Source: Thiohalophilus sp. (GTDB taxonomy: Bacteria; Pseudomonadota; Gammaproteobacteria; UBA6429; Thiohalophilaceae). From it: DNA of 64,000 nt. Both the position numbers and the translations under genes were made by a program. Shown here piece after piece: positions 33,991 through 48,361 of this stretch (position 1 is the first letter of the stretch; each line of letters opens with the position of its first letter). The stretch spans positions 310,001-374,000 of the forward strand of contig NZ_JAXHLN010000003.1 of assembly GCF_034522235.1 (NCBI RefSeq). Reading direction: 5' to 3'. A model generated the notes under the pieces. The model saw nothing but the letters and a program-made list of their open reading frames with translations. It did no database searches and was not told the DNA's origin.

Positions 33991-34149
33991 TCGTGTCGGA
34001 CCCGTTACCGGCCGGACAAATAACAACAAAAAATGCCGGTAAATTACAGAGACTGCCTGTCGCACGGCAATAATAATGCCGGCGATATCGGACGCTGTCT
34101 TGCCTTTGCGGCAACAACAGGTATTTGCACAACAAAATAAGGGGCCAGC

Positions 34150-34673
34150 ATGAAAGCACGCATTTTTCTTTTACTCTGGGGGGCGGCGCTGTTACAGCCG
34201 CTGTTCGCTGCCGAGACTTTGATTATGACCGCGCCGCCGCGCGAATCTCTGGCGGCGGGCGAGAAACAGTATGCCGTCTGGCCCGCTTCCGAAACCCCGC
34301 GCGTCAGCCGGTCGTGCGTGGCGTCAAGGGCGGGATGGGGGCCGTTTACAAGGCGTTCAAAAACGGGGAGTGTGACGCCTTCGTGGTACGCACCTCGTTT
34401 TACCAGAATGTCATGAGCGAAGAAGATCGCCAGGAATTGAAGATTGTTTATACATCAGATGCCATGCCCAACCAGTCCATCTCGGTCAGCAGTCGATTGA
34501 CGTCACAAGAGCGCAGCAAGTTGCGTCAGGCATTGCTTTCCGAAGCCGGAACACAGGCCTTGCAACCGACGCTGAACCGCTTTGCCAGCAAGGCCAAACG
34601 TTTTATTGCAACCGATAATGCGGAATTCAAGGATTACAATACCCTGCTCGAAGGTGTGATTTTCGGCTGGTAA
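34150..34673 (+). pseudogene. phosphonate/phosphite-type substrate-binding protein, deleted and frameshifted
   Basis: The first ~40 codons give a good signal peptide and family N-terminus (MKARIFLLLWGAALLQPLFA, then TLIMTAPPRESLAAGEKQY). The reading frame then becomes meaningless, while a second frame gives the family C-terminal half: RFRNPARQPVVRGVKGGMGAVYKAFKNG, CDAFVVRTSFYQN, and LKIVYTSDAMPNQSI. PhnD-like proteins of this type have about 270-300 residues; the two parts add up to ~170. The junction near 34265-34290 therefore combines loss of about 100 codons with a frame change. No transporter genes flank it. Confidence 0.8.
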
Positions 34674-34695
34674 CCTCGGTGCAACGCGCTGGACA

Positions 34696-34733
34696 TTAAA
34701 CGCAAAGAACGCCGAGACGCAGAGGCCGCGAAG
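34696..34733. repeat. single GC-rich dispersed repeat copy
   Basis: A degenerate copy of the AACGC...GAGACGCAGAGG element directly after the decayed binding-protein gene. Confidence 0.65.
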
Positions 34734-34769
34734 TAATTATGATGTGGCTTTTACTACCTGTTTGAGCTG

Positions 34770-34885
34770 TAGGGTGGATCAAGCCGCAGGCGGATCCACC
34801 ATTCTCGCTTGATACTTCGCACCTGGAAGCGCCGGATCCGCTGCACTTGATCCGGCCTACCCGCTCAGAACTCAGAACTCAGCAC
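34770..34885. repeat. TAGGGTGGATCAAGCCGCAGG element followed by a heptamer array
   Basis: 34770-34800 carries TAGGGTGGATCAAGCCGCAG and a short inverted GGATCCACC end. A close copy lies at 44496-44526. From about 34864 to 34885 runs the 7-bp array CTCAGAA/CTCAGCA that ends four bases before the gpmA stop codon. Confidence 0.7.
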
Positions 34886-34889
34886 TATC

Positions 34890-35645
34890 TTATGCCGCCT
34901 GATCATCTTGCCCATTTAGATAGTACCAATCCAGCGGCGACCCGTTGTGGTCGAAGTGATAAACGATCGGCATGGCAGTCGGAATCTCGAAACATTCGAC
35001 TTCCGCCACGCTCATGTCCGCCAGCGCCATGATCAGTGCACGCAGGGTGTTGCCGTGGGCGCTGATCAGCAGCCGCTCGCCGCGGCGGATACGCGGGATG
35101 ATGTCCTCATCCCAGTAGCGCATGACCCGTTCGCGGGTCTCGGCCAGGTTCTCCACATCGGGTAGTTGGGCCGGGTCGATATCGTGGCAAAGCGGATCGT
35201 GACAGCTGTGCCGTGCATCCTCGCGGCGCAGGGCACCGGCACGATCGTGATAACCCCGGCGCCAGCGCCACACCTGCTGCTCGCCATGGCGTGCGGTGGC
35301 CTCACCCTTGTCCAGCCCCTGCAGGGCGCCGTAATGGCGTTCGTTCAGCTGCCAGGCCCGGGTGCGCGGAATGCCATCCTGACCCAGTTCGGCCAGCAGG
35401 ATACCCAGCGTAGTCACCGCCCGCTGCAATCGCGAACTGTAGGCCGCGTCGAAGACGAACCCCTGCTCGCGCAGAAGTTTGCCGGCGGCGTGCGCTTCGG
35501 CAATCCCGGCTTCGGTCAGCGGCGGATCGGCCCAGCCGGTGAAACGGTTCTCTTTGTTCCACTGGCTCTGGGCGTGGCGAATCAGAACCACCGGTACCGG
35601 GCCGGGGCGGGTTTGAGTCGGTTTTGTCGTTGTCGTTTTCATCAT
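34890..35645 (-). CDS. gpmA: 2,3-bisphosphoglycerate-dependent phosphoglycerate mutase
   Basis: Interconverts 2- and 3-phosphoglycerate in glycolysis and gluconeogenesis. A 251-residue protein with the histidine-phosphatase signature LIRHAQSQWNKENRFTGWADPPLT; the catalytic His is present, although the usual RHGE reads RHAQ. Also visible are SRLQRAVTTLGILL, the LNERHYGALQGLDKGE block, and ISAHGNTLRALI with the second histidine. Two adjacent ATGs (35645, 35642) could start it. The N-terminal 15 residues (TTTTKPTQTRPG) are an extension. The coding end abuts a heptamer repeat array. Confidence 0.93.
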   Translation of the reverse strand: MMKTTTTKPTQTRPGPVPVVLIRHAQSQWNKENRFTGWADPPLTEAGIAEAHAAGKLLREQGFVFDAAYSSRLQRAVTTLGILLAELGQDGIPRTRAWQLNERHYGALQGLDKGEATARHGEQQVWRWRRGYHDRAGALRREDARHSCHDPLCHDIDPAQLPDVENLAETRERVMRYWDEDIIPRIRRGERLLISAHGNTLRALIMALADMSVAEVECFEIPTAMPIVYHFDHNGSPLDWYYLNGQDDQAA

Positions 35646-35702
35646 AGCTTTAGCCTAGGCTGGATCTCTTTATTTTTCAAATCGTTTGTTTATACTGTAT
35701 TA

Positions 35703-35717
35703 ATCGGTATTGCCTAT
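35703..35717 (+). promoter_or_regulatory. possible OxyR-type half-sites upstream of oxyR
   Basis: ATCG-N7-CTAT, with ATAC 7 bases further up, loosely follows the ATAG-N7-CTAT-N7-ATAG-N7-CTAT tetrameric pattern bound by OxyR. It lies in the 95-bp divergent gpmA/oxyR space. Match quality is poor, so autoregulation is only a possibility. Confidence 0.25.
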
Positions 35718-35740
35718 CATAAGGCCGGGCCAGAAAACGT

Positions 35741-36676
35741 ATGAATATCAGAGACCTGCAGTACATCATCGCCGTGGCCGAAACCCGCCATTTTGGCAAG
35801 GCGGCCGAGCGCAGTTTCGTCAGCCAGCCGACCCTCAGCGGCCAGATCAAAAAGCTCGAGGAGTCGCTGGGTGTGGCGATCTTCGAGCGCACCAACCGCT
35901 CGGTGGAGGTCACCCCCATCGGCGAGGCGATCCTGCGCCATGCCAGGCTGATGATGGAGCAGATGAACGCCATCGAGCAGCTGGCGCAGGCCCATCAGGA
36001 TCCACTGGCCGGGCCCCTGCGCCTGGGGGCGATTCCCACCATCAGTCCTTACCTGATGCCGCTGATCCTGGTGCCGCTCAAACGGCAGTATCCGCAGCTC
36101 AAGCTGGTCCTCTCCGAGGAGATGACCGACACCCTGATCCGCCGTTTGCAACACCACGAGATCGACGCCGCCCTGCTGGCCACGCCGGTGGACGAGCCGG
36201 ATCTGGCCGTCATGCCTCTGTTCGACGAACCCTTCTGGCTAGCCCATCCGCGGGATCACGCTTTTTATAATAAGGAGACCATCACCCGCGAGGATCTGGA
36301 AAACACCGAGCTGTTGTTACTCGCCGAAGGCCACTGCCTGGCCAAGCAGGCGATGGAAGTGTGCCGGTTGAAAGAGCGCAGCGAACGGGGCGAGATGGCG
36401 GACCTGCGCGCCGCCAGCCTGGAGACCCTGCTACAACTGGTCGGCGCCGGCTTCGGTTCCACCCTGGTGCCGGCGTTGGCCATGCGTGGCAGCTGGGCCA
36501 CCGGCAGCGGCATCGTCACCCGCCAACTGGATCTGCCAGACGCCTATCGCCGCGTCTCCCTCGTCTACCGCACCAGCTACCCGCGCATGGAAGCCCTGCA
36601 CACCCTCGCACGCGTCATTCTCGAACACCTGCCCAATACCGTGACGCCAATTGACGCCGTTGGCGTCAGGGGCTAG
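35741..36676 (+). CDS. oxyR: hydrogen peroxide sensor OxyR (LysR family)
   Basis: LysR-type activator of the peroxide response. A 311-residue protein with the N-terminal winged HTH (MNIRDLQYIIAVAETRHFGKAAERSFVSQPTLSGQIKKLEE) and a substrate-type effector domain. The two redox cysteines are at positions 199 and 208 (EGHCLAKQAMEVC), the same numbers as in E. coli OxyR, with 8 residues between them. This makes the assignment firm rather than just 'LysR'. It is divergent from gpmA. Its stop lies in a stretch of repeat-like sequence (CTAGTAACCAGGAGCTAG). Confidence 0.95.
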   Translation: MNIRDLQYIIAVAETRHFGKAAERSFVSQPTLSGQIKKLEESLGVAIFERTNRSVEVTPIGEAILRHARLMMEQMNAIEQLAQAHQDPLAGPLRLGAIPTISPYLMPLILVPLKRQYPQLKLVLSEEMTDTLIRRLQHHEIDAALLATPVDEPDLAVMPLFDEPFWLAHPRDHAFYNKETITREDLENTELLLLAEGHCLAKQAMEVCRLKERSERGEMADLRAASLETLLQLVGAGFGSTLVPALAMRGSWATGSGIVTRQLDLPDAYRRVSLVYRTSYPRMEALHTLARVILEHLPNTVTPIDAVGVRG

Positions 36677-37049
36677 TAACCAGGAGCTAGATTCTAGTAA
36701 CCAGCGTTTAATACCTGGTACTTATTCGTGTGGGAGTAATTTGCAAGCGCGACAGGACAAGTGGCACAGAAGTCGCCGCTGCAAGCGCCTCCCACAGGTC
36801 CTTCGACATAGTCAGTGTCTAGCACCTGGAAACTCGCCTCTGTTGTCGTGGGAGGGCATTGACGTGGCAGAAAAATCGCGGCTAAAAGCCCCTCCTACAT
36901 CACCTGCCACTAGCTTGCTGCCAACTGCCAACTGCCAACTGCGAACTCAGCACTCAGCACTCAGCACTCAGCACTCAGCACTCAGAACTTGTGGCCCCTG
37001 TCTCTATATCGAGCTATGATGCCTTGAAGAACCGCGCTGGAGAGCAAAA
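36677..37049. repeat. repeat-filled intergenic region with long heptamer array
   Basis: No gene seen. It holds GTGGGAG... and CGCGGCTAAAAGCCCCTCCTAC (the latter repeated at 40031), then a 7-bp array at 36918-36989. That array begins as CCAACTG units and changes into CTCAGCA units, five of them nearly perfect. The lemA start follows 60 bp later. Confidence 0.8.
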
Positions 37050-37646
37050 ATGGATATTTCGACAATCGTGATCCTGGTGGTACTGGGCATCATCGTGGTC
37101 TACATCATCGCGATCTACAACCGCCTGGTGGCGTTGCAGAACCGCTTCAAGAATGCGTTCGCCCAGATCGAGGTGCAGCTCAAACGCCGTTATGATCTGA
37201 TCCCCAACCTGGTGGAAACCGCCAGGGGGTATCTCAAGCACGAACGCGAAACCCTCGATGCCGTCGTGCAGGCGCGCAACGCGGCGCAGCAGGGGCTGGA
37301 TCAGGCCCATGACGATCCCGGTAACCCCGATGCGATCGATAACCTGAGCCGGGCCGAAGGCAATCTGGCCGGCGCGCTGGGGCGCTTCAACGTGGTGGTC
37401 GAGGCCTATCCCGATCTCAAGGCCAATCAGAACATGATGCAGCTTAATGAGGAGCTGACCAGCACCGAGAACAAGGTCGCCTTCGCGCGCCAGGCGTTCA
37501 ATGACGCGGTCATGGCCTACAACACCTACAAGCAGTCCTTCCCGCAGAATGTGTTCGCCGGCCTGTTCGGCCACGGCCAGGATGCTCACCTGCTGGAGTT
37601 CGAAGACAGCGCCGAGATCCAGGCCGCGCCCAGCGTCTCATTTTGA
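37050..37646 (+). CDS. lemA: LemA family protein
   Basis: A 198-residue protein with one N-terminal membrane helix ([24 protein letters not shown]) and a long helical bundle. Family signatures: [30 protein letters not shown] and the C-terminal [26 protein letters not shown] with NVFAGLFGH. LemA proteins are often encoded beside M48 or TPM-domain proteins, as here with the M48 protease downstream. Function is unknown, but the pair is likely to act at the inner membrane. Confidence 0.93.
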
Positions 37647-37689
37647 CCCGGCTGTTGCGCTAAACAGGAGTTTTGAATGCCCGTTCAAA

Positions 37690-37825
37690 GAGATTGCTTC
37701 GTCACGTTGTTCCTCGCAATGACGTCACTGTTTTCGGTCATTGCGACGCCTGCATGGACGCAGGTGGTAGAGCGACGCAGGACGCCAAAGCCGAGCGAAG
37801 CGAAGCAATCTTTTGAACAACGTGA
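37690..37825. repeat. inverted-repeat element between lemA and the M48 gene
   Basis: AGATTGCTTCG (37691) pairs with CGAAGCAATCT (37801), TCACGTTGTTC (37702) with GAACAACGTGA (37815), and GCAATGAC with GTCATTGC. This is the common bacterial 'attgcttcg...gcaatgacg' type of intergenic palindrome. It leaves ~28 bp before the M48 start. Confidence 0.75.
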
Positions 37826-37852
37826 TCGGGTATTCGGAGCGTTTGGATAGCC

Positions 37853-39793
37853 ATGGACTTTTTTGAAGCACAGGATCGAGCCCGACGCCAGACCGGCTGG
37901 CTGGTCGTGCTGTTTATGCTGGCGGTGATGGGGCTGATCCTGCTGACCAATCTGCTGGTACTGGGTGTGCTCGCCTATAACCAGACCGGGGTACCGACTT
38001 TCTCGCCCGAATTGTTGGCGCAGCAGTTTCAGTGGGATGTGTTCCTCGGTGTGGCCGCGGTGGTCATCGCACTGGTGTTTCTCGGCAGTGCCTATAAAAC
38101 GATGTCGCTCTCCGGCGGCGGTCACAAGGTGGCCGAGATGCTCGGTGGCCGCGCGCTCAGTTCCGACAGCCGCGATCCCGATGAACGCCGTGTGCTGAAC
38201 GTGGTGGAAGAGATCGCCATCGCCGCCGGCATGCCGGTACCCCGGGTCTATCTGCTGGAGGAGGCGGGCATTAACGCCTTCGCCGCCGGCTCCAGCCCCA
38301 ACAACGCGGTGATCGGCATCACCCGCGGCGCCATGGAGACGCTGACCCGCGATGAGCTGCAAGGCGTTATCGCCCACGAGTTCAGTCACATCTTCAACGG
38401 CGACATGCGCATGAATATTCGCCTGATCGGTGTGCTGCACGGGATTTTGTTGCTGGCGCTGGTCGGCTACTTTTTGTTGCGCTCCTCTTTCTTTGTCCGC
38501 GCCTCTCGCAACCGCCAATCCGGCGGACTGGTGGTGGCGATCATCGGCCTGGGGATCGGTCTGCTGGTGATCGGTTACGTGGGCCATTTCTTCGGGCAAT
38601 GGATCAAGGCCATGGTCAGTCGCCAGCGCGAATACCTGGCCGACGCCTCGGCGGTACAGTTTACCCGCAACAAGCAGGGCATCGCCGGGGCGTTGAAAAA
38701 GATCGGCGGCGCCCTGCACGGCTCGCTGCTGGAAACCCCGGCCGCCCCCGAATACAGCCATGCCTACCTGGCCCAGGGGGTCAAAGGCTTCATGCAGTCG
38801 CTGTTTTCCACCCACCCGCCGTTGCCGGATCGGATCAGGCGTCTCGACCCCACCTGGGACGGTGAGTTTGTCGTGCCGGTCAAACAATCCACTGAGGCCG
38901 AGCCGACCCCCGAAGCAGCCCCCAAACCATCGCTGGATATCGTCGGCGCAGTAGTGGCCGCCGGCGTCCTCAGCGCCGGCAAGATGGTGGACCAGGTCGG
39001 CCACTTCGACGAGCAACAGGTCGAGGCGGCACAGGCGATCATCGCCGCCATCCCGCCCGAACTGCGCGAGGCCGCCGCCGAACCCTTCGGCGCCCGCGCG
39101 GTGATTTACGTGTTGTTACTCGATCCCCGTCCCCGGGTCGAACGCGAACAACAACGGCTGCTGGAACAACAGGCCGATCCGCAAGTGGTCCAGGTATGCC
39201 AGGCCCTGGCGGAACTGCGCCGGGATCTGCCCGAAGCGATCCGCCTGCCGTTGATCGAACTGACCCTGCCGGCGCTGGAAGGCCTGTCCGAGGAGCAGTA
39301 TCGGCGTTTTCGGGCTGTGGTGCAGGCGTTGATCGCCGCGGACAAGCGCGTCGATCTCAAAGAATGGATCCTGCAGCGGCTGGTGATCCGGCAACTCGAT
39401 CAACACTTCGGCCTGCGCAAGCCCGCCAGAGCGATACACGGCAAGCTGACGCAGGTAAAAGCCCAGTTGCAGGTGATGCTCTCGCTGGCGGCGCATACCG
39501 AGTACCCCGACGCGCAACAGGCCGAACAGGCGTTTAATGCCGGCGCGGCCGAAGCCGGTATGACCGATCTCACCTTGCTGCCGCGCGATGCGCTCGATCT
39601 CAACACACTCAACCACGCACTCGACAGCCTCGAACAACTCAAACCCCTGGCCAAACCCCGCCTGCTCAAAGCCTGTGCCGTCTGCATCCTGCACGACGGC
39701 AACACCACCGTCCCCGCCCAGGAACTGCTGCGCACCCTCGCCAGCTGCCTCGACAGTCCCATGCCAATATTAGTTAAAAGTTCTGAGTTCTGA
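37853..39793 (+). CDS. M48 family membrane metalloprotease with long C-terminal region
   Basis: A 646-residue protein. Two N-terminal membrane helices, then the HtpX-like catalytic domain with zinc motif HEFSH in LQGVIAHEFSHIFNGDMRMN, two more helices (LHGILLLALVGYFLL; GLVVAIIGLGIGLLVIGYVGHFF) and the third ligand glutamate in REYLADASAVQFTRN. After about residue 340 comes a ~300-residue soluble extension of helical character, unlike HtpX. The last residues VKSSEF and the stop come from an AGTTCTG heptamer array, so the native end has probably been replaced. It follows lemA, a common pairing. Confidence 0.9.
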   Translation: MDFFEAQDRARRQTGWLVVLFMLAVMGLILLTNLLVLGVLAYNQTGVPTFSPELLAQQFQWDVFLGVAAVVIALVFLGSAYKTMSLSGGGHKVAEMLGGRALSSDSRDPDERRVLNVVEEIAIAAGMPVPRVYLLEEAGINAFAAGSSPNNAVIGITRGAMETLTRDELQGVIAHEFSHIFNGDMRMNIRLIGVLHGILLLALVGYFLLRSSFFVRASRNRQSGGLVVAIIGLGIGLLVIGYVGHFFGQWIKAMVSRQREYLADASAVQFTRNKQGIAGALKKIGGALHGSLLETPAAPEYSHAYLAQGVKGFMQSLFSTHPPLPDRIRRLDPTWDGEFVVPVKQSTEAEPTPEAAPKPSLDIVGAVVAAGVLSAGKMVDQVGHFDEQQVEAAQAIIAAIPPELREAAAEPFGARAVIYVLLLDPRPRVEREQQRLLEQQADPQVVQVCQALAELRRDLPEAIRLPLIELTLPALEGLSEEQYRRFRAVVQALIAADKRVDLKEWILQRLVIRQLDQHFGLRKPARAIHGKLTQVKAQLQVMLSLAAHTEYPDAQQAEQAFNAGAAEAGMTDLTLLPRDALDLNTLNHALDSLEQLKPLAKPRLLKACAVCILHDGNTTVPAQELLRTLASCLDSPMPILVKSSEF

Positions 39794-40226
39794 GTGCCGA
39801 GTTTCAGGTAGGGTGCATCCCACGCACCGGATCCTGTATGTCGGTGGTTTTATGGTGCGTAGAACGCACCCTACTCAAAGGGGGAATCCTAAGAACTCAG
39901 ATTTTATGATTGCGGGAAGATTCTAGAACCTGGAGCCTGGTCCCTGCCCGAAGGGCTGTTGGCGCAGCCTGCGTGACTGAACTCAGAACCCATAGGAGGC
40001 GACTTTGTCGGCGACCTGCCCGGGATTAGAAAAGTCGCGGCTAAAAGCCCCTCCCACATCACCTGGCACTAACTTGCTGCCAACTGCAAACTCAGCACTC
40101 GGTATAGAGCAACACATCGTCATGCCGACCTGCGCCGGCATCACGATGACACTCGGACAGTGGACTATTCTGCTAACTGAAAACTGTCTACTGCCAACTT
40201 TCTCTTCAGCACTCAGCACTCAGAAC
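39794..40226. repeat. intergenic repeat block between two convergent genes
   Basis: No gene seen. It holds an AGTTCTG array at its left edge, the palindromic GGGTGC...GCACCC element 39809-39874 (copied at 42781-42842), CGCGGCTAAAAGCCCCTCCC near 40031, CCAACTG and CTCAGCA units at 40078-40100, and a CTCAGAA array at 40205-40240 that supplies the end of the GGDEF gene. Confidence 0.8.
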
Positions 40227-42530
40227 TCAGAACTCAGAACTCCCCACGACCCGGTTCCTGCCGCCTTCCTTGGCCTTGTACAGCGCATCATCGGCCCGTT
40301 TGACCAGGCTTTCGAGTCTGTCTCCGGGTTGGTAGGTACTGACTCCCAGACTGACGGTGATCTGTCCGGCCGACGGGAAGTCGATATCGGCAATGCGCTG
40401 GCGCAGATGATCAGCCGCCTGCAGGGCGGCATCGAGCTCTGTTTCAGGCAACAGAACAATGAACTCTTCACCACCCCAGCGTGCCGGGATGTCGCTGCTG
40501 CGCAGTTGTTCGCGCAGGGTGTCGGCGAGCAGGCGCAGTACTTCGTCGCCCACATTGTGGCCGAAACGATCATTGACGGACTTGAAGTGATCGAGATCAA
40601 ACAGAATCAACGCCAACGCGCGATGATAACGGGCCACGCGTTCCAGCTCCTGCGATAGCAACGCTTCAAATTTGCGCCGGTTATACAGTCCGGTGAGAGC
40701 GTCATGAATGGCCTGCTGTTCCAGTTTATTGAACAGATGCTGGCGAACCCGGGTGCCGCCAATCAGCTCCGCTGCGACCTGCAACAATTTAAGATAATTA
40801 TGTGACCAGTGAGATTGTTGTTCGGCAAAGGAGAACATCAATACACTCGCCAGTATGCCATCCCGCAGGATGGGTAATACCAGCACGGACTGATCGCCGC
40901 CGGAGACCAGCAGGGTATGCTCAAGGACGTCCCGATTCTCACTCTCGGCATGCACAATAACGGCGTCGGTATGCAACAGTTTTTGATAATAAGGTGCAAC
41001 GACGACAGCCGGAATATGGAAGTCCGCCTCGCGTGGTGTGACCCCCCGGGCGCACCACTGCAGATGCATACCCAGACCGCCGTTTTCGGGGCTGTAATCA
41101 AACAACATACAGCGGCGGGTTTGTAAAAATTCTCCCAGGCTTTCGAGCGCGTGACAGATGCCATTATGCTTTGCATCGGTATCATTGTTTAATAATGACA
41201 GGGAAACGTCACGCAGCAGTTCTTCCAGTTGCAGTTGCTGTTGCAGGTCTTCCTCGGCCTGTTTTTTAGCGGTGATATCGATGGAGGTCGAGACAATGCG
41301 CTCCTCACCACCGACTGTCATTGGCTGCAGGAATACATCCTCCCACATGGCCTTGCCCCCGGCATTATAAGTAAGCCATTCGAAGCGTTGTGGTCCATAT
41401 TTGTGCACGCGTTCGAACCAGCGTTGCACATCTTCCAGGCTATAGGGCGGCTCACCCCAGACGCTGCGCAGCTCGAAAGACAATCGGTTCAGCTCTGCCA
41501 CATCCGCCACGCCGTAAATCTCCAGGGCACGTTCATTGGCCTGCCGTACCTCGGCGGTGTGTGGATCATGCACCATCACCGAGACCGAGCTGTTATCGAA
41601 CAACGCCTGCAGCTGATTTTTTTGCTCCTGCAGTTCACGGGTGCGTTCCTGTAATTGCAGGGTCAGTTCGGCCCGCTGACGACGCAGGCCGTGCAGGTAG
41701 AGGCTGAAAAAGATCAATGCCAGTACCAACAGGGCTGCGACCAGGGTTGGCATCAGCCAGCCCGGAGTAACCTCAACGGTGCTGGTGTGGGCCCAGCGCT
41801 GGGTAATACGATCCAGCTCGGTGTCCGGCAGGTTGGCGATAGCCTCGTTGACTTTTTTTAACAGGGCGGAGTCCTCGAGCCGCACCGCCGCCACCAGTTG
41901 CTGCCGGTACAGCACTTCCAGCACATGGAAGTCGCCGGGCGCGGCGTACTGATCCAGCAGATAACGCCCCACCGGGTGATCGGCGGCAAACGCCGTAACC
42001 TCGCCCGCCACCGCGGCGGTGACCAGATCGGCGTTATTGGGATACTCGCGCAATGGCAGTTCCGGATACCGTCCCTGCAAAAACTCCCGCTCGTAACTGC
42101 CGGCCACCACACCGACAGGGGCCAGTGCCGGATCATCCAGCGTGCGGGCCTGAATGTCGGCACTGACAAACAACACCGTCTCCAGCGGAATCAGCGGATG
42201 AGAAAAATCCAGAAACTTCGAGCGCTCCGGCGAGGGGAACAGTCCGCCGTGCACCGGCACCGTCCCGTTACGCACCTGCTCGATGGTTTGTGGCCAGTCC
42301 GCCAGACGAAACGCCACAGGCCGGCCCATCTGCTCGCCCAGTGCCCGCCACAGATCCACCAGCAACCCGCGCGGCTCGCCGTGGCGATCCCGAAACGCCA
42401 GCGGCGGCCAGCTGTGATCCTGCGAGATCACCAGCGGCGCGGGATCCGCCTTGTCGGCCGCCAGCGGTGTCGGAAGTGCCATTGCGAGGCAGAGCAGACA
42501 CAAAACCCGGGATAAGATAGCAGAAGGCAT
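40227..42530 (-). CDS. diguanylate cyclase with SBP_bac_3, PAS, GAF-like and GGDEF domains
   Basis: A 767-residue membrane protein making cyclic di-GMP. Order: signal peptide (LCLLCLAMALPTPLA), periplasmic amino-acid-binding-type domain (about 30-265), membrane helix (LMPTLVAALLVLALIFFSLYLHGL), coiled coil, PAS domain (LFDNSSVSVMVHDPHTAEV), GAF-like domain (about 450-595), and GGDEF domain (LTGLYNRRKFE ... ILFDLDHFKSVND). The active loop is GGEEF, and RSSD stands five residues before it, the inhibitory I-site. The last residues GSSEF and stop come from a heptamer repeat array, as in the convergent M48 gene. The binding domain suggests the activity responds to a small molecule. Confidence 0.92.
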   Translation of the reverse strand: MPSAILSRVLCLLCLAMALPTPLAADKADPAPLVISQDHSWPPLAFRDRHGEPRGLLVDLWRALGEQMGRPVAFRLADWPQTIEQVRNGTVPVHGGLFPSPERSKFLDFSHPLIPLETVLFVSADIQARTLDDPALAPVGVVAGSYEREFLQGRYPELPLREYPNNADLVTAAVAGEVTAFAADHPVGRYLLDQYAAPGDFHVLEVLYRQQLVAAVRLEDSALLKKVNEAIANLPDTELDRITQRWAHTSTVEVTPGWLMPTLVAALLVLALIFFSLYLHGLRRQRAELTLQLQERTRELQEQKNQLQALFDNSSVSVMVHDPHTAEVRQANERALEIYGVADVAELNRLSFELRSVWGEPPYSLEDVQRWFERVHKYGPQRFEWLTYNAGGKAMWEDVFLQPMTVGGEERIVSTSIDITAKKQAEEDLQQQLQLEELLRDVSLSLLNNDTDAKHNGICHALESLGEFLQTRRCMLFDYSPENGGLGMHLQWCARGVTPREADFHIPAVVVAPYYQKLLHTDAVIVHAESENRDVLEHTLLVSGGDQSVLVLPILRDGILASVLMFSFAEQQSHWSHNYLKLLQVAAELIGGTRVRQHLFNKLEQQAIHDALTGLYNRRKFEALLSQELERVARYHRALALILFDLDHFKSVNDRFGHNVGDEVLRLLADTLREQLRSSDIPARWGGEEFIVLLPETELDAALQAADHLRQRIADIDFPSAGQITVSLGVSTYQPGDRLESLVKRADDALYKAKEGGRNRVVGSSEF

Positions 42531-43275
42531 CAGTTCAATTTAATTACGGTAAGTTAACTGGCTAATAATAACCCGCTTCGAGGCAGAGAGTTAGGGGGCG
42601 CATACAGGGCAGCCTGCGTTCGGAAGCTTGTTATCGGCAGGTAGGCGCTGTACTTGAAAGATCAGCAACATCGGCCTTCGCGGATTTGCTGCATTATAGC
42701 GACCACAGGTCTGACCTGACCAGGGGTATGGCGCACCCTCGCCAGCTGCCTTTGCTGGTTAAAAGTACTGAGTGCCGAGCAGGGTGCGTCCCACGCACCA
42801 GCTCCTTCGTGTCGGTGGTTTTATGGTGCGTAGAACGCACCATGCTGAATCTGGCACTTAGCACTCAGAACTCAATCCTGCGGAGTATCCGGATCGCACC
42901 CGCCCGAACCGGCGTTGCACATTCTCCAGGGCAGAAGGGCGCGAAAAAATCCGGAAATTTCGGTCGCTCCGGCGAGAGGAACAGCCCGCCGTACACCGGC
43001 ATCGTTCCGCCGCGCACTCGCGAGCTCACCCGCGCCGCCGGAGCGGACAATCCCGGTTTGTGTCCGATTTTCACAATACGCCGGTGCCACCCCCGGTTAA
43101 ATTAGATCGGAATAGCGTCCCGTATGGCCCGCCCGATTGTTTGTGTCGGGCAGGGAGCCGTTGCAGTCGGGCTGCATCTACGGGACTACTGGCGAGTCGT
43201 ACGCCTGGAAGGTGCTGTTAGCGGTGGCCGCACCATGCCCCGGTCACCCTGGATTACTGAACGAGGAGAGTGAAG
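42531..43275. other. 745-bp region without an intact gene
   Basis: It contains a degraded second copy of sequence from the M48/GGDEF locus (separate entry), another GGGTGC...GCACC palindrome copy (42781-42842), and short heptamer traces (42855-42875). The last ~240 bp before the YadA-like gene show nothing recognisable. Confidence 0.6.
42731..43025. pseudogene. remnant copy of the M48 3' end, its spacer, and part of the GGDEF gene
   Basis: 42731-42751 repeats the M48 codons for the RTLASCL stretch, followed by TTAAAAGT.CTGAGTGCCGAG and the GGGTGC palindrome in the order found after the M48 gene. 42921-43025 (minus strand) encodes VRGGTMPVYGGLFLSPERPK, matching VRNGTVPVHGGLFPSPERSK of the adjacent GGDEF protein. 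The spacing shows that nearly all of the second GGDEF copy has been lost. Confidence 0.75.
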
Positions 43276-44202
43276 ATGAACAAAAGAAAATTCCAATACC
43301 TGCCCGGCGTGCTGTTGTTGGCACTGGGTTCTGTCCCGCTGCTGGCCCAGGTGAATATTCCCAATACCTTCGCGTCCGGCGAGACCGCTGTGGCGGCAGA
43401 GGTTAATGCCAATTTCCAGGCGCTGGAAGACGGCCTGAATGACGCACTGTTGCGCATCAACACCCTGGAAAGTGAACTTGCCCAGGCCCAGACGGCGCTC
43501 GATGAGGCGCAGAATGTACTCGCCCTCAACGACTACGTGGAGCTTGTTCCTGATGACAACATCCTGAATGAATACACCGTGCGCTTTTCCGGTGTAAATC
43601 TGCAGATCGTCAATGGCGAAGGGCAGACCGAGTCGGTCAACGGCCTGGGTAATCTCATCGTCGGCTACAACGAGGCCCGCAATCTTGGCACCGACAACTC
43701 GATCTGTTCCGACGGGCAGTATGATAATCAGACCGACTGTGTAGACAATAGCGAGCTGTGGCAGCCCAGCCACAAGAGCGGCTCGCATAATCTGATCGTC
43801 GGCCATGGAAATGCCTACAGCCAGTACGGCGGGATCGTGGCGGGCGAGCACAGTGCTATCAACCGGGGGCACGCCAGTGTCACCGGCGGTTGGGTTAACG
43901 TGGCGAGCGGCAGTCATGCGGCAGTGGCCGGGGGGCAGAATAATGTCGCCTCCGGGCATCGTTCCGCGGTACTGGGCGGTTATGACAACAGTGCCACTTA
44001 CGCGAACGCAACGGTCAGCGGCGGACGGGAGAATACCGCTTCCGGTACCTACAGCAGCGTCAGTGGCGGTATACAGAATACCGCATCGGGCCGGTACAGT
44101 AGTGTCAGCGGCGGCGAAGGCAATACCGCATATGGTATCGCCAGCAGCATTCTCGGCGGTCAGAATGAATCTGCGACCAGCGACTACCAGACCATCCCCT
44201 GA
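43276..44202 (+). CDS. secreted protein with YadA-head-like repeats
   Basis: A 308-residue exported protein, started at the ATG with GAGGAG seven bases upstream. Signal peptide (YLPGVLLLALGSVPLLAQ), a short coiled coil (ANFQALEDGLNDALLRINTLESELAQAQTALDEAQ), a variable part with Cys pairs, then about nine left-handed beta-roll repeats: SHNLIVG, GGWVNVASG, GGQNNVASG, GGYDNSAT, GGRENTASG, GGIQNTASG, GGEGNTAYG. These repeats are those of trimeric autotransporter heads, but no YadA anchor follows; the chain stops at SDYQTIP. I infer a secreted or anchored-by-partner adhesin-like protein. A small lipoprotein gene follows. Confidence 0.78.
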   Translation: MNKRKFQYLPGVLLLALGSVPLLAQVNIPNTFASGETAVAAEVNANFQALEDGLNDALLRINTLESELAQAQTALDEAQNVLALNDYVELVPDDNILNEYTVRFSGVNLQIVNGEGQTESVNGLGNLIVGYNEARNLGTDNSICSDGQYDNQTDCVDNSELWQPSHKSGSHNLIVGHGNAYSQYGGIVAGEHSAINRGHASVTGGWVNVASGSHAAVAGGQNNVASGHRSAVLGGYDNSATYANATVSGGRENTASGTYSSVSGGIQNTASGRYSSVSGGEGNTAYGIASSILGGQNESATSDYQTIP

Positions 44203-44221
44203 ACAAGAAGGAGCATCGGCT

Positions 44222-44368
44222 ATGTACAAGCACTGGTTAATAGCACCCCTGCTCGCGACGTTGCTGCTTGCCGCCTGCGGAGGCGGCGGCGGGGGCAGTG
44301 GGGATAACAGCGGGGCAAGCAGCTCTACCTGGGGCGAGATGGTATGGGGCGAAGGGACGTGGGAGTGA
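44222..44368 (+). CDS. small glycine-rich lipoprotein
   Basis: A 48-residue protein with signal peptide and lipobox LLLAACGGGGGG. The Gly run is followed by SGDNSGASSSTW and a WGEMVWGEGTWE end. AGGAG precedes the ATG. It lies 19 bp after the YadA-head-like gene and is likely in the same transcript. Small lipoproteins of this kind are often named only by their lipobox; function unknown. Confidence 0.65.
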   Translation: MYKHWLIAPLLATLLLAACGGGGGGSGDNSGASSSTWGEMVWGEGTWE

Positions 44369-44777
44369 AAACCTTGGGTTAGGCCTGATGAATCCCCCGG
44401 CCGGACGCCGTTGGGGCCAGGAGTTGGTGCCCGGGGGCAGGTCCGGATAAAGCGCCGGATCCGCGTCGCTTGATCCACCCTGCCTGTTTGAATCGTAGGG
44501 TGGATCAAGCCGCAGGCGGATTCACCTTGCTTACTGCTAACAATCTTTATTCGCCCCACGGGCGTGATTTTGACTTGATCTGGCTCTTCTCTGAGGACTG
44601 CTATCTGCTATCTGCCAACTTTCCCTTTGCCCCACGGGCGCGATATCGACTATGCCGGAGATCCGACGCTTGTCTGACGACTGCCATCTGCCAACTGCCT
44701 ACTTTCTCTTCTCGTCCCGACGGCAATGGGCCCCAGAACGCCTTTCGACCAGGGAAAGCCCGGACTAATTAAAGGGC

Positions 44778-44816
44778 TTTGACCCCTTAATTTGACCCCT
44801 TAATTTGACCCCTTAA
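44778..44816. repeat. three tandem copies of a 13-bp unit
   Basis: TTTGACCCCTTAA occurs three times head to tail without a mismatch. It marks the left edge of the AT-rich stretch before hipBA. Confidence 0.9.
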
Positions 44817-44864
44817 TTGAAATAGATATGTAATAATATATAATCAATAATTAATGATATAAAT

Positions 44865-44908
44865 AAACATATCAATACTTGATCTATATAATAATTGCCG
44901 ATATGTTT
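44865..44908 (+). promoter_or_regulatory. possible HipB operator
   Basis: AAACATATC and GATATGTTT form perfect 9-bp inverted arms 26 bases apart within the AT-rich region, ~43 bp before the antitoxin start. HipB-type antitoxins bind TATC...GATA palindromes upstream of their own operon, so this is a reasonable operator candidate. Confidence 0.45.
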
Positions 44909-44950
44909 AAAAATATATTAATTAGATAATGATATATTCAGGCATATCAA

Positions 44951-45568
44951 ATGAGCTATGTTGTTGAAGACATTGCCCGTCAGCTGAAGGCGGCCCGGTT
45001 ACGCAAAAATCTTAGCCAGCGCGATTTGGCTGAGAAGGTCGGCGTGCCGCAGAGTCATATCTCCAGGATTGAGAACGGCAATGTGGATATACGGGTCTCG
45101 AGCCTCATCGAATTTGCCCGGGTACTGGATTTGGAGCTTTCGCTTGTGCCGCGCAAGTTGGTGCCGACTGTTCAGAGCATTATTCGCAGCTCTGAAACGG
45201 AGCAGTTCACCAAAGCAGAATCCATGCAAAAAGCCGTTCAGCAGCTAAATCGTATTCACAAACTATCTGATGAGCTCTCGCACAAATACAAGAATATTAA
45301 TGAGTTGGCGCGTGTCAGCCGGCTGGCCGAGCAACTAAAGACAATTCCCGCTGTGACGCAACAGTTTGAACAGTTGGATAAAATCAACAAACAGCTCAAG
45401 CAGTTTCAGAAAGGTATCGGCGATATTTCATACATTCAGAATGCCTTTAAGGAGCTACAGTCCATGCGTAACAGCCTTGTGTATGCCACTGATGATGCAT
45501 CTCATAGAATCGAAGAGCCTCAGCCGGCCTATCGCCTGGACGAGGATGAGGGACAGGACAATGGCTAA
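44951..45568 (+). CDS. hipB: HipB-like antitoxin, XRE-family HTH with long coiled-coil tail
   Basis: A 205-residue protein. The N-terminal HTH is ARQLKAARLRKNLSQRDLAEKVGVPQSHISRIENGNVDIRVSSLIEFARVLD. The following ~130 residues are mostly helical with heptad character (about 95-175), much longer than the ~88-residue E. coli HipB. Its gene ends inside hipA (8-base overlap, ATGGCTAA). It should repress its own promoter and neutralise HipA. Confidence 0.85.
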   Translation: MSYVVEDIARQLKAARLRKNLSQRDLAEKVGVPQSHISRIENGNVDIRVSSLIEFARVLDLELSLVPRKLVPTVQSIIRSSETEQFTKAESMQKAVQQLNRIHKLSDELSHKYKNINELARVSRLAEQLKTIPAVTQQFEQLDKINKQLKQFQKGIGDISYIQNAFKELQSMRNSLVYATDDASHRIEEPQPAYRLDEDEGQDNG

Positions 45569-46790
45569 TGTAACTGTCCTGGATGTTCTTCTCCATGGCC
45601 GTCAGATCGGCACGCTGACCCAGATCGGTCACGATCGCAACCTTTTTGCATTTACTGAAGAATATATTAACGATACATCGCGCCCGACGCTGAGCCTTTC
45701 CTTCAAAGATCAGCTTGGTAATCTCATTACTGATATAAAGCCTCGACAGGTACAAGTTCCGCCATTTTTTTCAAATCTCCTGCCCGAAGGCCATATGCGT
45801 GATTATCTCGCAGAACGGGCAGGTGTAAATTCAAAAAGGGAATTCTTTCTTCTTTGGGTGCTTGGTCGCGATCTACCCGGTTCGATTGTGGTTCAACCAG
45901 CCGATGGTGAGGCCTGGCCGGATGATGACATTGAGGATGAAGCTCGGTCTGCTCATGGTCATGAACAGGCACTGCGTTTTTCTCTTGCCGGTGTTCAGAT
46001 CAAATTCTCCGCTGTTATGAGTGCTACCGGTGGTCTCACGATTCCGGCACAGGGAGTGGGTGGCTCCTGGATTATCAAGCTTCCTTCCGCGAAGTATGAT
46101 GATGTGCCCGAAAATGAATTCTCGATGATGAGCCTTGCGGCTGAGCTTGGAATGGATATACCTGAAATCGCACTTCACCCGACTGAACAGATCGATAATT
46201 TGCCTGAGGGTATGGGAAATATTGGTGGACAGGCACTGGCAATCAAGCGATTTGATCGTACCGAGGATGATATTGCGATTCATATTGAAGACTTCGCTCA
46301 AGTGTTCGACATCTATCCAGACAACAAATATAAAAAAGCCAATTACCGAAATATTGCACAGGTGATTTGGGCGGAAATCGGGGAGCCAGGTATTATTGAG
46401 TTTGTGCGACGTCTTGTGTTCAATACGCTAATTGGCAATGCCGATATGCATTTGAAGAACTGGTCGCTAATTTATCCTGATGGGCGGACACCGGCACTTG
46501 CACCGGGGTATGATTTTGTTTCAACCATTCCCTATCTTCCAGATGTAACTATGGCATTGAAATATAGCCGCACCAAGAGTATGACTGAGCTGAGCGTTGA
46601 TGAATTGAGCCATTTTTCTGCCAGGGCTCAGTTACCGAAGACACTTGTTATAAATGCGGCGCGGAAGACCGTTCAGGATTTTCTGGATATCTGGCCAAAA
46701 CGGAAAGCAGAGCTGCCACTATCTGCGGAGACGATTAATACGATCGATAAGCATGTGAAATCGATCGCGTTGGTTGAAGAATTACAATAA
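45561..46790 (+). CDS. hipA: HipA-family Ser/Thr kinase toxin
   Basis: A 409-residue kinase starting at the ATG that overlaps hipB. The N-subdomain-1 (VLLHGRQIGTLTQIGHDRNLFAFTEEY, PFFSNLLPEG) is followed by the kinase core: FSLAGVQIKFSAVM, WIIKLPS (ATP-binding lysine), NEFSMMSLAAELGMDIPEI, ALAIKRFDR, and the catalytic loop NADMHLKNWSLIY with LAPGYDFVST. HipA of E. coli phosphorylates GltX and causes persistence; the target here is unknown. Catalytic residues look intact. Confidence 0.9.
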   Translation: MANVTVLDVLLHGRQIGTLTQIGHDRNLFAFTEEYINDTSRPTLSLSFKDQLGNLITDIKPRQVQVPPFFSNLLPEGHMRDYLAERAGVNSKREFFLLWVLGRDLPGSIVVQPADGEAWPDDDIEDEARSAHGHEQALRFSLAGVQIKFSAVMSATGGLTIPAQGVGGSWIIKLPSAKYDDVPENEFSMMSLAAELGMDIPEIALHPTEQIDNLPEGMGNIGGQALAIKRFDRTEDDIAIHIEDFAQVFDIYPDNKYKKANYRNIAQVIWAEIGEPGIIEFVRRLVFNTLIGNADMHLKNWSLIYPDGRTPALAPGYDFVSTIPYLPDVTMALKYSRTKSMTELSVDELSHFSARAQLPKTLVINAARKTVQDFLDIWPKRKAELPLSAETINTIDKHVKSIALVEELQ

Positions 46791-47377
46791 GGGTAAAGCG
46801 ATTCTGATTGACTGCCCGGCACCCGGCACCCGGCACCCGGCACCCGGCACTCAGAACCCAGAACTCAGAACTCAGAACTCAGCCGACCCCTGCAGGAGCG
46901 CTCCACGGGCCGATATCGACTATACCGGCGATCCGGCACTTTTCTGACGACTGCCATCTGCCATCTGCCAACTGTTAACTATCTTTATTCGCCCCACGGG
47001 CGCGATTTTGACTCAGCATCCAGCACTTGGAACTCGGAACTCAGCACTTCCTCCTGCCCGAAGGCCCCGTGGGAGCGGGCTGACGCACAGGGAAGTGCTA
47101 ATGTCACGGTAGACACGGACGTTGTGAGTGACGCGACCGCGAATTGGCTCTCGTGTCCGAAAGACCTGTGGGAGCGGGCCACGACCGCGATTTCGCTCGT
47201 CACTCGGCCGTGCCCGAGACCTGTGGGAGCGGGCTACGACCGCGACATCCCGACCGCAATGGCCCCCAGCGCCTCTCGACTAGGGGTAAACCCGAATACT
47301 CATCCCGACCGCCCTGGGCTAGTCTTGGAGAGTCCGCATTACAAGTAGTATGACAAAAGCCAGCGGCGGTACCGCGC
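46791..47377. repeat. 587-bp intergenic region of dispersed repeats
   Basis: No gene seen. 46813-46881 is a 7-bp array starting as CGGCACC units and turning into CTCAGAA units. 46948-46978 has CTGCCATCTGCC units, and 47014-47047 more CTCAGCA-like units. Two copies of GTGGGAGCGGGC.ACGACCGCGA occur at 47170 and 47222. A similar CTAATGTC.CGG phrase recurs at 63920. Confidence 0.75.
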
Positions 47378-48361
47378 ATGTTCCTCCTGTTACCCTACAA
47401 GCTCGCCCACCCGTTACACCGCCGCCCGTGGGTGACCTGGACCATTGCGCTGCTGTGCCTGCTGATCTACTACCTGCAATCCAGCGCCACGGTCCGTATC
47501 GAACAATCGGCAGCGCAGTTCTGCGCAGGCGACCATGGCATGACCCTGGACAGATTTCTGGGCAGGCTCGAAAAAGAAAACGAATTCATTGAGAGCACTG
47601 CCAGTGCGTGTCAGCAATACCTGGTGTACCTGCACAGTGAGAAACAGCCGGACAGCATCATCCATAACCTGGTGAGCGAACACGGCGAAGAACTGAAAGA
47701 AGCGGGCATCAACCCGCAAAGCCTGGCAGTCCACCTGAGCATGACCTATCACGATTTCGCCGATCAGGCGCCGCTGGATCTCACCCGCTTCCTGAGTTAC
47801 CGGGCCGGCTCGTTCAACCCGTTCAGTTCGTTCCTGTCCGCCTTCGCCCATGCCGACTGGTGGCACGTGATCGGCAACCTGGTGTTCTTTCTCGCCTTCG
47901 CCGGCGCGGTGGAGGTGTTCATCGCCCACACCGGCAAGTTCCTGCTCAGCCTGTTCGCCATCGAGGTGGGACTGGACTTCTCCTGGTCGATCGCCATGCT
48001 CTCCTCGCCGGCGGAGGTGACCCTGGGGCTGTCGGGTGTCGTCTCCGGCATGATCGGCTTTCTGGCCTATGCCATCCCGCGCGGGCAGATCCGCTGCCTG
48101 TTCGGTATCCTGTTCTACTTCTGGCATGGCACACTGGCAGTCTGGGTGCTGGCGCTGTGGTACGTCGGCTGGGATGTCTTCTACCTGTTCACCACCGGCG
48201 CCTCGTCGGTCAACTACCTGGCCCACGTCATGGGTGCGCTGTTCGGTTACGGCATCGCAGGGCTGTTTTACCGGCAACGCAAGGGCGAGCTGCAGGAGAA
48301 TATCGACAAAGAGCTGATCCGTTACCAGCAGGAGCGGGTGCATCGGGTGGGGCGGTTTTGA
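47378..48361 (+). CDS. rhomboid-family intramembrane serine protease
   Basis: A 327-residue polytopic protein. The first membrane helix (WVTWTIALLCLLIYYL) is followed by a ~110-residue soluble loop, then the six-helix core: the HADWWHVIGNLVFF motif with the oxyanion His/Asn, the serine motif GLSGVVSGMIGFLAYA, and the catalytic histidine in VNYLAHVMGALFGYGIAGL. All catalytic parts are present. Substrate unknown. It is the last normal-composition gene before the accessory region. Confidence 0.88.
   Translation: MFLLLPYKLAHPLHRRPWVTWTIALLCLLIYYLQSSATVRIEQSAAQFCAGDHGMTLDRFLGRLEKENEFIESTASACQQYLVYLHSEKQPDSIIHNLVSEHGEELKEAGINPQSLAVHLSMTYHDFADQAPLDLTRFLSYRAGSFNPFSSFLSAFAHADWWHVIGNLVFFLAFAGAVEVFIAHTGKFLLSLFAIEVGLDFSWSIAMLSSPAEVTLGLSGVVSGMIGFLAYAIPRGQIRCLFGILFYFWHGTLAVWVLALWYVGWDVFYLFTTGASSVNYLAHVMGALFGYGIAGLFYRQRKGELQENIDKELIRYQQERVHRVGRF

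Follow-up and report, generated by a model that had tools for sequence, protein, structure and literature searches.

Why should two convergent genes end in the same four residues, each time encoded by a tandem array of one 7-base unit? The question arises in a 64,000-nucleotide stretch (contig 3:310001-374000, hereafter the window) of the 3.06-Mb genome of Thiohalophilus sp., where an M48 peptidase gene and a gene for a GGDEF protein converge, both finishing with SSEF inside AGTTCTG arrays that are read in one sense. An earlier note on this DNA had proposed that such arrays are either selected as universal stop cassettes or tolerated at gene 3′ ends because they are harmless there. We found that each family of heptamer arrays in this genome is oriented inward, running from the gene beside it towards the interior of the intergenic region, regardless of gene direction. 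The arrays are probably the tandem-repeat arms of inverted-repeat intergenic composites, in which the heptamer arms expand and turn over.

The convergent M48/GGDEF pair

The gene pair and the 433-bp gap between its members, which holds a pair of inverted arms and two palindromes, comprise the following features.

37853-39793, + strand: M48 peptidase gene (Pfam Peptidase_M48, 1.3e-28); its final 15 nt, AGTTCTGAGTTCTGA, read S S E F stop and are array-derived
39779-39803, + strand: left array, AGTTCTG AGTTCTG AGTGCCG AGTT; the AGT strand leads out of the M48 gene into the gap
39808-39874, no strand: palindromic element GTAGGGTGCATCCC...ACGCACCCTAC, resembling a repetitive extragenic palindromic (REP) sequence, with GTAG and a hairpin
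39993-40057, no strand: second palindromic element, TAGGAGGCGACTTTGTCGGC...TCGCGGCTAAAAGCCCCTCCCA, REP-like by eye
40206-40242, - strand: right array, three AGTTCTG units and two AGTGCTG units, leading out of the GGDEF gene into the gap and inverted relative to the left array
40227-42530, - strand: gene for an SBP_bac_3/PAS/GAF/GGDEF protein (Pfam domain matches); its terminal SSEF and stop are array-encoded

The two genes do end as the earlier note had described, the M48 gene in ...AAA AGT TCT GAG TTC TGA (KSSEF, then stop) and the GGDEF gene in ...GGG AGT TCT GAG TTC TGA (GSSEF, then stop). It is also true that (AGTTCTG)3 presents TGA in every frame on one strand and in none on the other. 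The AGTTCTGAGTTCTG pattern, with at most one mismatch, had 10 matches in the window versus 0.03 expected. The RNA fold of positions 39790-39885 reached -37.6 kcal/mol (z-score -2.4), and an Rfam search of window positions 34000-48000 gave no match.

Abundance, position and polarity of the arrays

Counts were obtained from 1.92 Mb of the genome, about one third of the stretches having been picked around AGTNCTG pairs and the remainder not, and 0.8 Mb of Thiohalophilus thiocyanatoxydans DSM 16326, the nearest relative used, served for comparison. A period-7 tract counted as an array once it showed 10 or more consecutive matches at lag 7. Gene calling relied on a simple home-made coding-model finder, in which stops are exact per called gene and starts approximate. 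At the array examined, locus L031 (contig C1) is a duplicate of locus L034, and later tests left it out; contig C1 (40.7 kb) and contig C3 at about 33 kb (L034) share an identical gene end, array and intergenic region of about 390 bp, which may reflect a duplication or a redundant assembly.

Two consecutive AGTNCTG units matched 35 times on the + strand and 62 times on the - strand genome-wide, versus 0 matches for the reversed control. Period 7 was the sole strongly enriched short period apart from its multiple 14, with 96 noncoding and 6 coding tracts in the 1.92 Mb and at most 19 noncoding tracts for any other period except 14; the over-representation was repeated in T. thiocyanatoxydans. 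Period 8 (CACGAAGA/CGCAGAGG) came second in enrichment among short periods, behind 7 and 14, and it too forms inverted intergenic arms (L051:7400-7500 and T. thiocyanatoxydans C1:383500-383560). The units of the arrays fall into three unrelated families.

Family A: AGTNNNN, namely AGTTCTG, AGTGCTG, AGTTGGC, AGTTCTA and AGTTCTC
Family B: AATTTTG/AATGTTG
Family C: ACGAGGG/ACGAGTG

Three consecutive AGTNCTG units were present in 2 of the 58 genomes searched, those of Thiohalophilus sp. and its congener. Moreover, the neighbourhoods of M48 homologues in other taxa (80 loci) contained a single heptamer tract, that of T. thiocyanatoxydans; the arrays are therefore not tied to the M48 gene family.

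Gene 3′ ends were clearly preferred, since 38 of the 137 arrays overlapped such an end or lay within 10 bp of it, as compared with 8.9 expected from uniform placement within their own intergenic regions. Within 10 bp of gene 5′ ends there were 2 arrays versus 3.9 expected. Divergent regions contained 5 arrays and convergent regions 47, for similar total lengths (68 and 70 kb, respectively).

Within 10 bp of 3′ ends, the AGT, GAAT or CGAG strand was always in sense (38:0); within 60 bp, the arrays lay on the coding strand at stops (61:10) and on the non-coding strand at starts (14:0). At 5′ borders the stop-bearing strand was antisense to the gene (33:1). Co-directional regions exhibited both states, with sense arrays beside the upstream stop (40:3) and antisense arrays in the third of the region beside the downstream start (30:0). 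A looser count of units per intergenic region gave inward to outward ratios of 137:29 (genes ++), 71:14 (genes --), 95:14 (convergent) and 24:11 (divergent). The rule also held in stretches that had not been picked by array (24:4 at 3′ ends and 7:0 at 5′ ends, within 60 bp) and in T. thiocyanatoxydans (16:1 and 5:0, respectively, within 60 bp). Arrays that are stop-free on the sense strand, with units such as AGTTGGC, ACGAGGG and AGTTCTC, shared this polarity: the ratio was 15:2 for those within 60 bp of 3′ ends and 9:0 for those nearest to a 5′ end. Polarity thus follows the side of the intergenic region and not gene direction, so stops are not its cause. The earlier note had looked to a bias for 3′ ends, with the stop strand in sense, as support for stop cassettes; the bias is real, but it does not lend that support.

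Four further features of the window bear on the same rule.

34864-34886, - strand: array AGTGCTG AGTTCTG AGTTCTG, beyond the gpmA stop, of inward polarity
34890-35645, - strand: gpmA (His_Phos_1, 5e-35)
36918-36989, - strand: array (ACTGCCA)n(ACTCAGC)n, upstream of 37050, at the 5′ border of the gene there; its stop-bearing strand is antisense to that gene
46815-46882, - strand: array of CCCGGCA and ACTCAGA units, 24 bp past the gene ending at 46790, among the few outward arrays near a 3′ end

Three bases separate the gpmA stop from its array (TAA-GAT-AGTGCTGAGTTCTG), whose orientation is that of the M48 and GGDEF arrays, in agreement with the earlier description. The array at 36918-36989, being antisense at a 5′ border, is a counter-example to the stop cassette inside the window itself. 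Next to the outward array, positions 44951-46790 contain overlapping Xre-like and HipA-like genes (by eye), which resemble a HipBA toxin-antitoxin system, and a perfect 13-bp tandem repeat (TTTGACCCCTTAA, 3.2 copies) lies upstream of the Xre-like gene, at 44778-44818.

Inverted arms, family B and turnover

Wherever one region held two opposite-strand arrays of one family, these ran + then - (9 regions for family A, 7 for B and 1 for C), and the order - then + was observed 0 times. In the far part of the region, opposite-strand unit pairs prevailed (51:23 for family A, 20:0 for B and 30:0 for C). An inverted partner of at least 11 nt was present in the array's own region for 18 of the 27 family B arrays (controls 20%), 11 of the 32 family C arrays (controls 16%) and 6 of the 37 family A arrays (controls 5%). 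Family A arms are further apart than those of family B and often enclose palindromes, such as those at 39808-39874 and 39993-40057 in the window. At L042:7843-7918, a head-to-head array was observed between convergent genes, its polarity flipping via palindromic AGTACT units.

Family B is a dispersed hairpin element of about 79 bp, in which an arm (AATTTTG AATGTTG AATTTTG AATTTTG AATT) and its inverted counterpart are separated by a loop of about 13 bases. The element was found at 68 places in the two genomes, 60 of them near full length and 67 intergenic, and none of the 68 lay between divergent genes. Dozens of copies are present in Thiohalophilus sp. (for example L192:15794-15870, L165:10928-10998 and L179:15552-15628); the 37 co-directional copies divided into 20 in + and 17 in - orientation. 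The element folds into strong hairpins (z-scores -5.8 and -4.4), and its inward polarity arises because it is palindromic. Inverted period-8 CGCAGAG(G) arms often flank it.

Comparison of the two species indicated that units turn over and polarity stays. Orthologous stops often carry arrays of different families but of one polarity (CTAGTTG versus TACTTAG, ACGAGGG versus AGGTGCT, AGTGCTG versus AGTTGGC), and in one gene, whose protein is 98% identical, CGAGG occurs once in one species and four times in the other at the same stop. The C-terminal tails track the units: SSEF in the window, SSEY and SVEC in two tandem GGDEF paralogues of T. thiocyanatoxydans, and SAEC versus STEY. M48 homologues are alike through ...SPMP and then diverge into KSSEF, KST and TVTRS, so residues past the conserved core are supplied by the repeat. 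Stop-free ACGAGGG arrays likewise enter coding ends and lengthen the proteins (RGTRDE-like tails). The earlier note had suggested comparing orthologous C-termini; several orthologues terminate at the same position, but with a normal stop codon and without an array. Annotators should treat tails of the SSEF, SAEC, STEY or RGTRDE type as encoded by repeats, not as conserved protein. In a contig labelled Sedimenticola hydrogenitrophicus SN1189 (L072), an M48 gene and its upstream neighbour resemble those of the Thiohalophilus sp. genome almost as closely as the T. thiocyanatoxydans ones do (91% versus 89% for M48); the context there differs and is devoid of arrays, and a gene transfer is possible.

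The composite that we favour would fill an intergenic region and be built of arms at the two borders of that region, mutually inverted and each reading inward from its flanking gene. Slippage and homogenisation would alter copy number and unit type within an arm, the effect of slippage on copy number being suggested by the one-to-four CGAGG case. Purifying selection, judging from the position of the arrays, would exclude arms from coding sequence and from promoter-bearing divergent regions, so that arms would accumulate at stop codons. An arm that begins a few codons inside a tolerant C-terminus may then supply the final residues and the stop. SSEF is most likely a by-product of this kind, namely AGTTCTGAGTTCTGA read in one frame, and three-frame TGA most likely follows, just as incidentally, from the presence of TGA in a 7-base unit. 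We infer for the AGT and ACGAG families an origin like that of family B, and likewise a means of spread.

Several observations weigh against this reading. In family A, to which the M48 and GGDEF arrays belong, just 6 of the 37 border arrays have a clear inverted partner. Families A and C do include pairs of inverted arms, but with varying interiors, and no discrete element with fixed ends was delimited for either family. Beyond 60 bp from a 3′ end, family A arrays take the two polarities equally often (8:8), and the divergent regions are few (p 0.04 for their ratio). In T. thiocyanatoxydans, the M48/GGDEF gap contains one short array of nearly single polarity. Finally, all gene calls depend on the home-made finder.

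Alternative explanations and known systems

Selection at the RNA level, with AGU-type repeats acting in 3′ untranslated regions (UTRs) and their complements in 5′ UTRs, as terminator, stabiliser or protein-binding site, predicts one polarity in all four gene arrangements, which matches the counts. It is also consistent with the near absence of arrays from divergent regions and with the strong RNA hairpins of family B, and post-transcriptional binding was proposed in MacGregor 2015 (PMC4679880) for TAACTGA repeats just upstream of starts. Nevertheless, it would have to accommodate one rule across three unrelated sequence families, unit types that turn over between orthologues, and a single family A array that shows no fold (z-score +1.2); we regard it as unlikely.

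Harmless insertion followed by survivorship seems less likely again. Arrays would enter at any site and in any orientation, survive at stops, and be lost in reverse orientation, which is stop-free and would lengthen the protein. The excess at stops and the scarcity at starts and in divergent regions fit this account, and to that extent the idea of harmless 3′ ends in the earlier note agrees with the position of the arrays. However, it cannot explain their polarity: it predicts neither inward arrays tens to hundreds of bp from genes or at 5′ borders, nor inward polarity of units that are stop-free on both strands.

Very little probability remains for end addition, in which exposed DNA 3′ ends in intergenic regions would be extended by a repeat-adding process or by templated repair and rejoined into head-to-head arrays. 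On both sides the arrays do run 5′ to 3′ away from unique sequence, as telomere-repeat tracts do, and head-to-head arrays do meet at the palindrome AGTACT, as in L042. Nonetheless, enzyme and template are without a candidate, and family B is a dispersed element, not an ad hoc addition. A common directional DNA-end process in unrelated bacteria, analogous to telomere-repeat addition or break healing with interchangeable templates, is a similarly remote source of the shared polarity.

Least credible is the universal stop cassette of the earlier note, by which arrays are kept at 3′ ends because the sense strand halts ribosomes in three frames: the sense orientation of every one of the 38 arrays that lie no more than 10 bp from a 3′ end and the three-frame stops in 22 of 39 arrays (count before duplicate removal) would suit it, but the bias is independent of the unit carrying stops, is reversed relative to the gene at 5′ borders, extends to all four arrangements, and coexists with ACGAGGG arrays that extend proteins and with orthologues that stop at the same place without an array.

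Linkage to REP sequences was also considered as the source of polarity and rejected, since GTAGG hairpins point only weakly inward (24:14) and only 4 of the 146 arrays were located 5′ of a detected GTAGG hairpin at a distance of up to 60 nt. Y1_Tnp, the REP-associated type, had three matches above the cut-off (contig C3:683255, 795083 and 1516055), and the genome that carries these three genes is also rich in GTAGG hairpins.

A literature search for Thiohalophilus repeats showed no relevant paper among its listed titles. Dispersed intergenic heptamer tandem repeats are familiar from heterocystous cyanobacteria, as the short tandemly repeated repetitive (STRR) heptanucleotides. Family B, moreover, resembles REP sequences and bacterial interspersed mosaic elements (BIMEs), as well as inverted repeats similar to miniature inverted-repeat transposable elements (MITEs), which are dispersed, intergenic and palindromic and avoid divergent regions; unlike these, the Thiohalophilus arms are 7-base tandem repeats.

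The closest parallels are found in two papers. As described in Rehm 2015 (PMC4692102), which also cites the Calothrix heptanucleotides, GGGAATC in Xanthomonas and GGGGA(T/C)T in Nostoc are heptameric intergenic repeats, located on the coding strand 0-50 bp from stops, some overlapping them, and on the non-coding strand 0-50 bp upstream of open reading frames (ORFs). According to the same text, there are 70-75 convergently oriented pairs per Xanthomonas genome and few repeats between divergent ORFs, and prominent repeats occur at different genes in related species. On this evidence, the Xanthomonas and Nostoc repeats are like the Thiohalophilus arrays in their 7-base unit, intergenic site and inward geometry. 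They differ in that their unit is a quadruplex-forming G-tract, whereas Thiohalophilus sp. has several families in one genome (AGTNNNN, AATTTTG and ACGAGGG); AGTTCTG, AGTGCTG and AATTTTG lack quadruplex-type G tracts.

TAACTGA direct repeats of marine Beggiatoaceae, some Cyanobacteria and Bacteroidetes are reported in MacGregor 2015 (PMC4679880) to carry stops in all three frames on just one strand and to overlap ORF ends, and the author suggests there that mobile repeats are tolerated at protein ends. The unit again has 7 bases, and the TCAGTTA strand leads away from the start codon, a polarity as in Thiohalophilus; however, the unit sequence is another one, and the repeats described lie mostly just upstream of starts, whereas the Thiohalophilus arrays lie mostly at 3′ ends.

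The period-7 noncoding excess and the strand rule place the arrays described here within this known intergenic kind. Relative to the portions of Rehm 2015 and MacGregor 2015 that we compared, what appears new is that several unrelated families in one genome share a single polarity rule, which depends neither on stops nor on gene direction. Overall, the stop-cassette story gives way to a measurable geometric rule, obeyed by three unit families and by the published Xanthomonas and Beggiatoaceae repeats; the process that generates heptamer arrays must accordingly operate on the whole intergenic region and not on reading frames.

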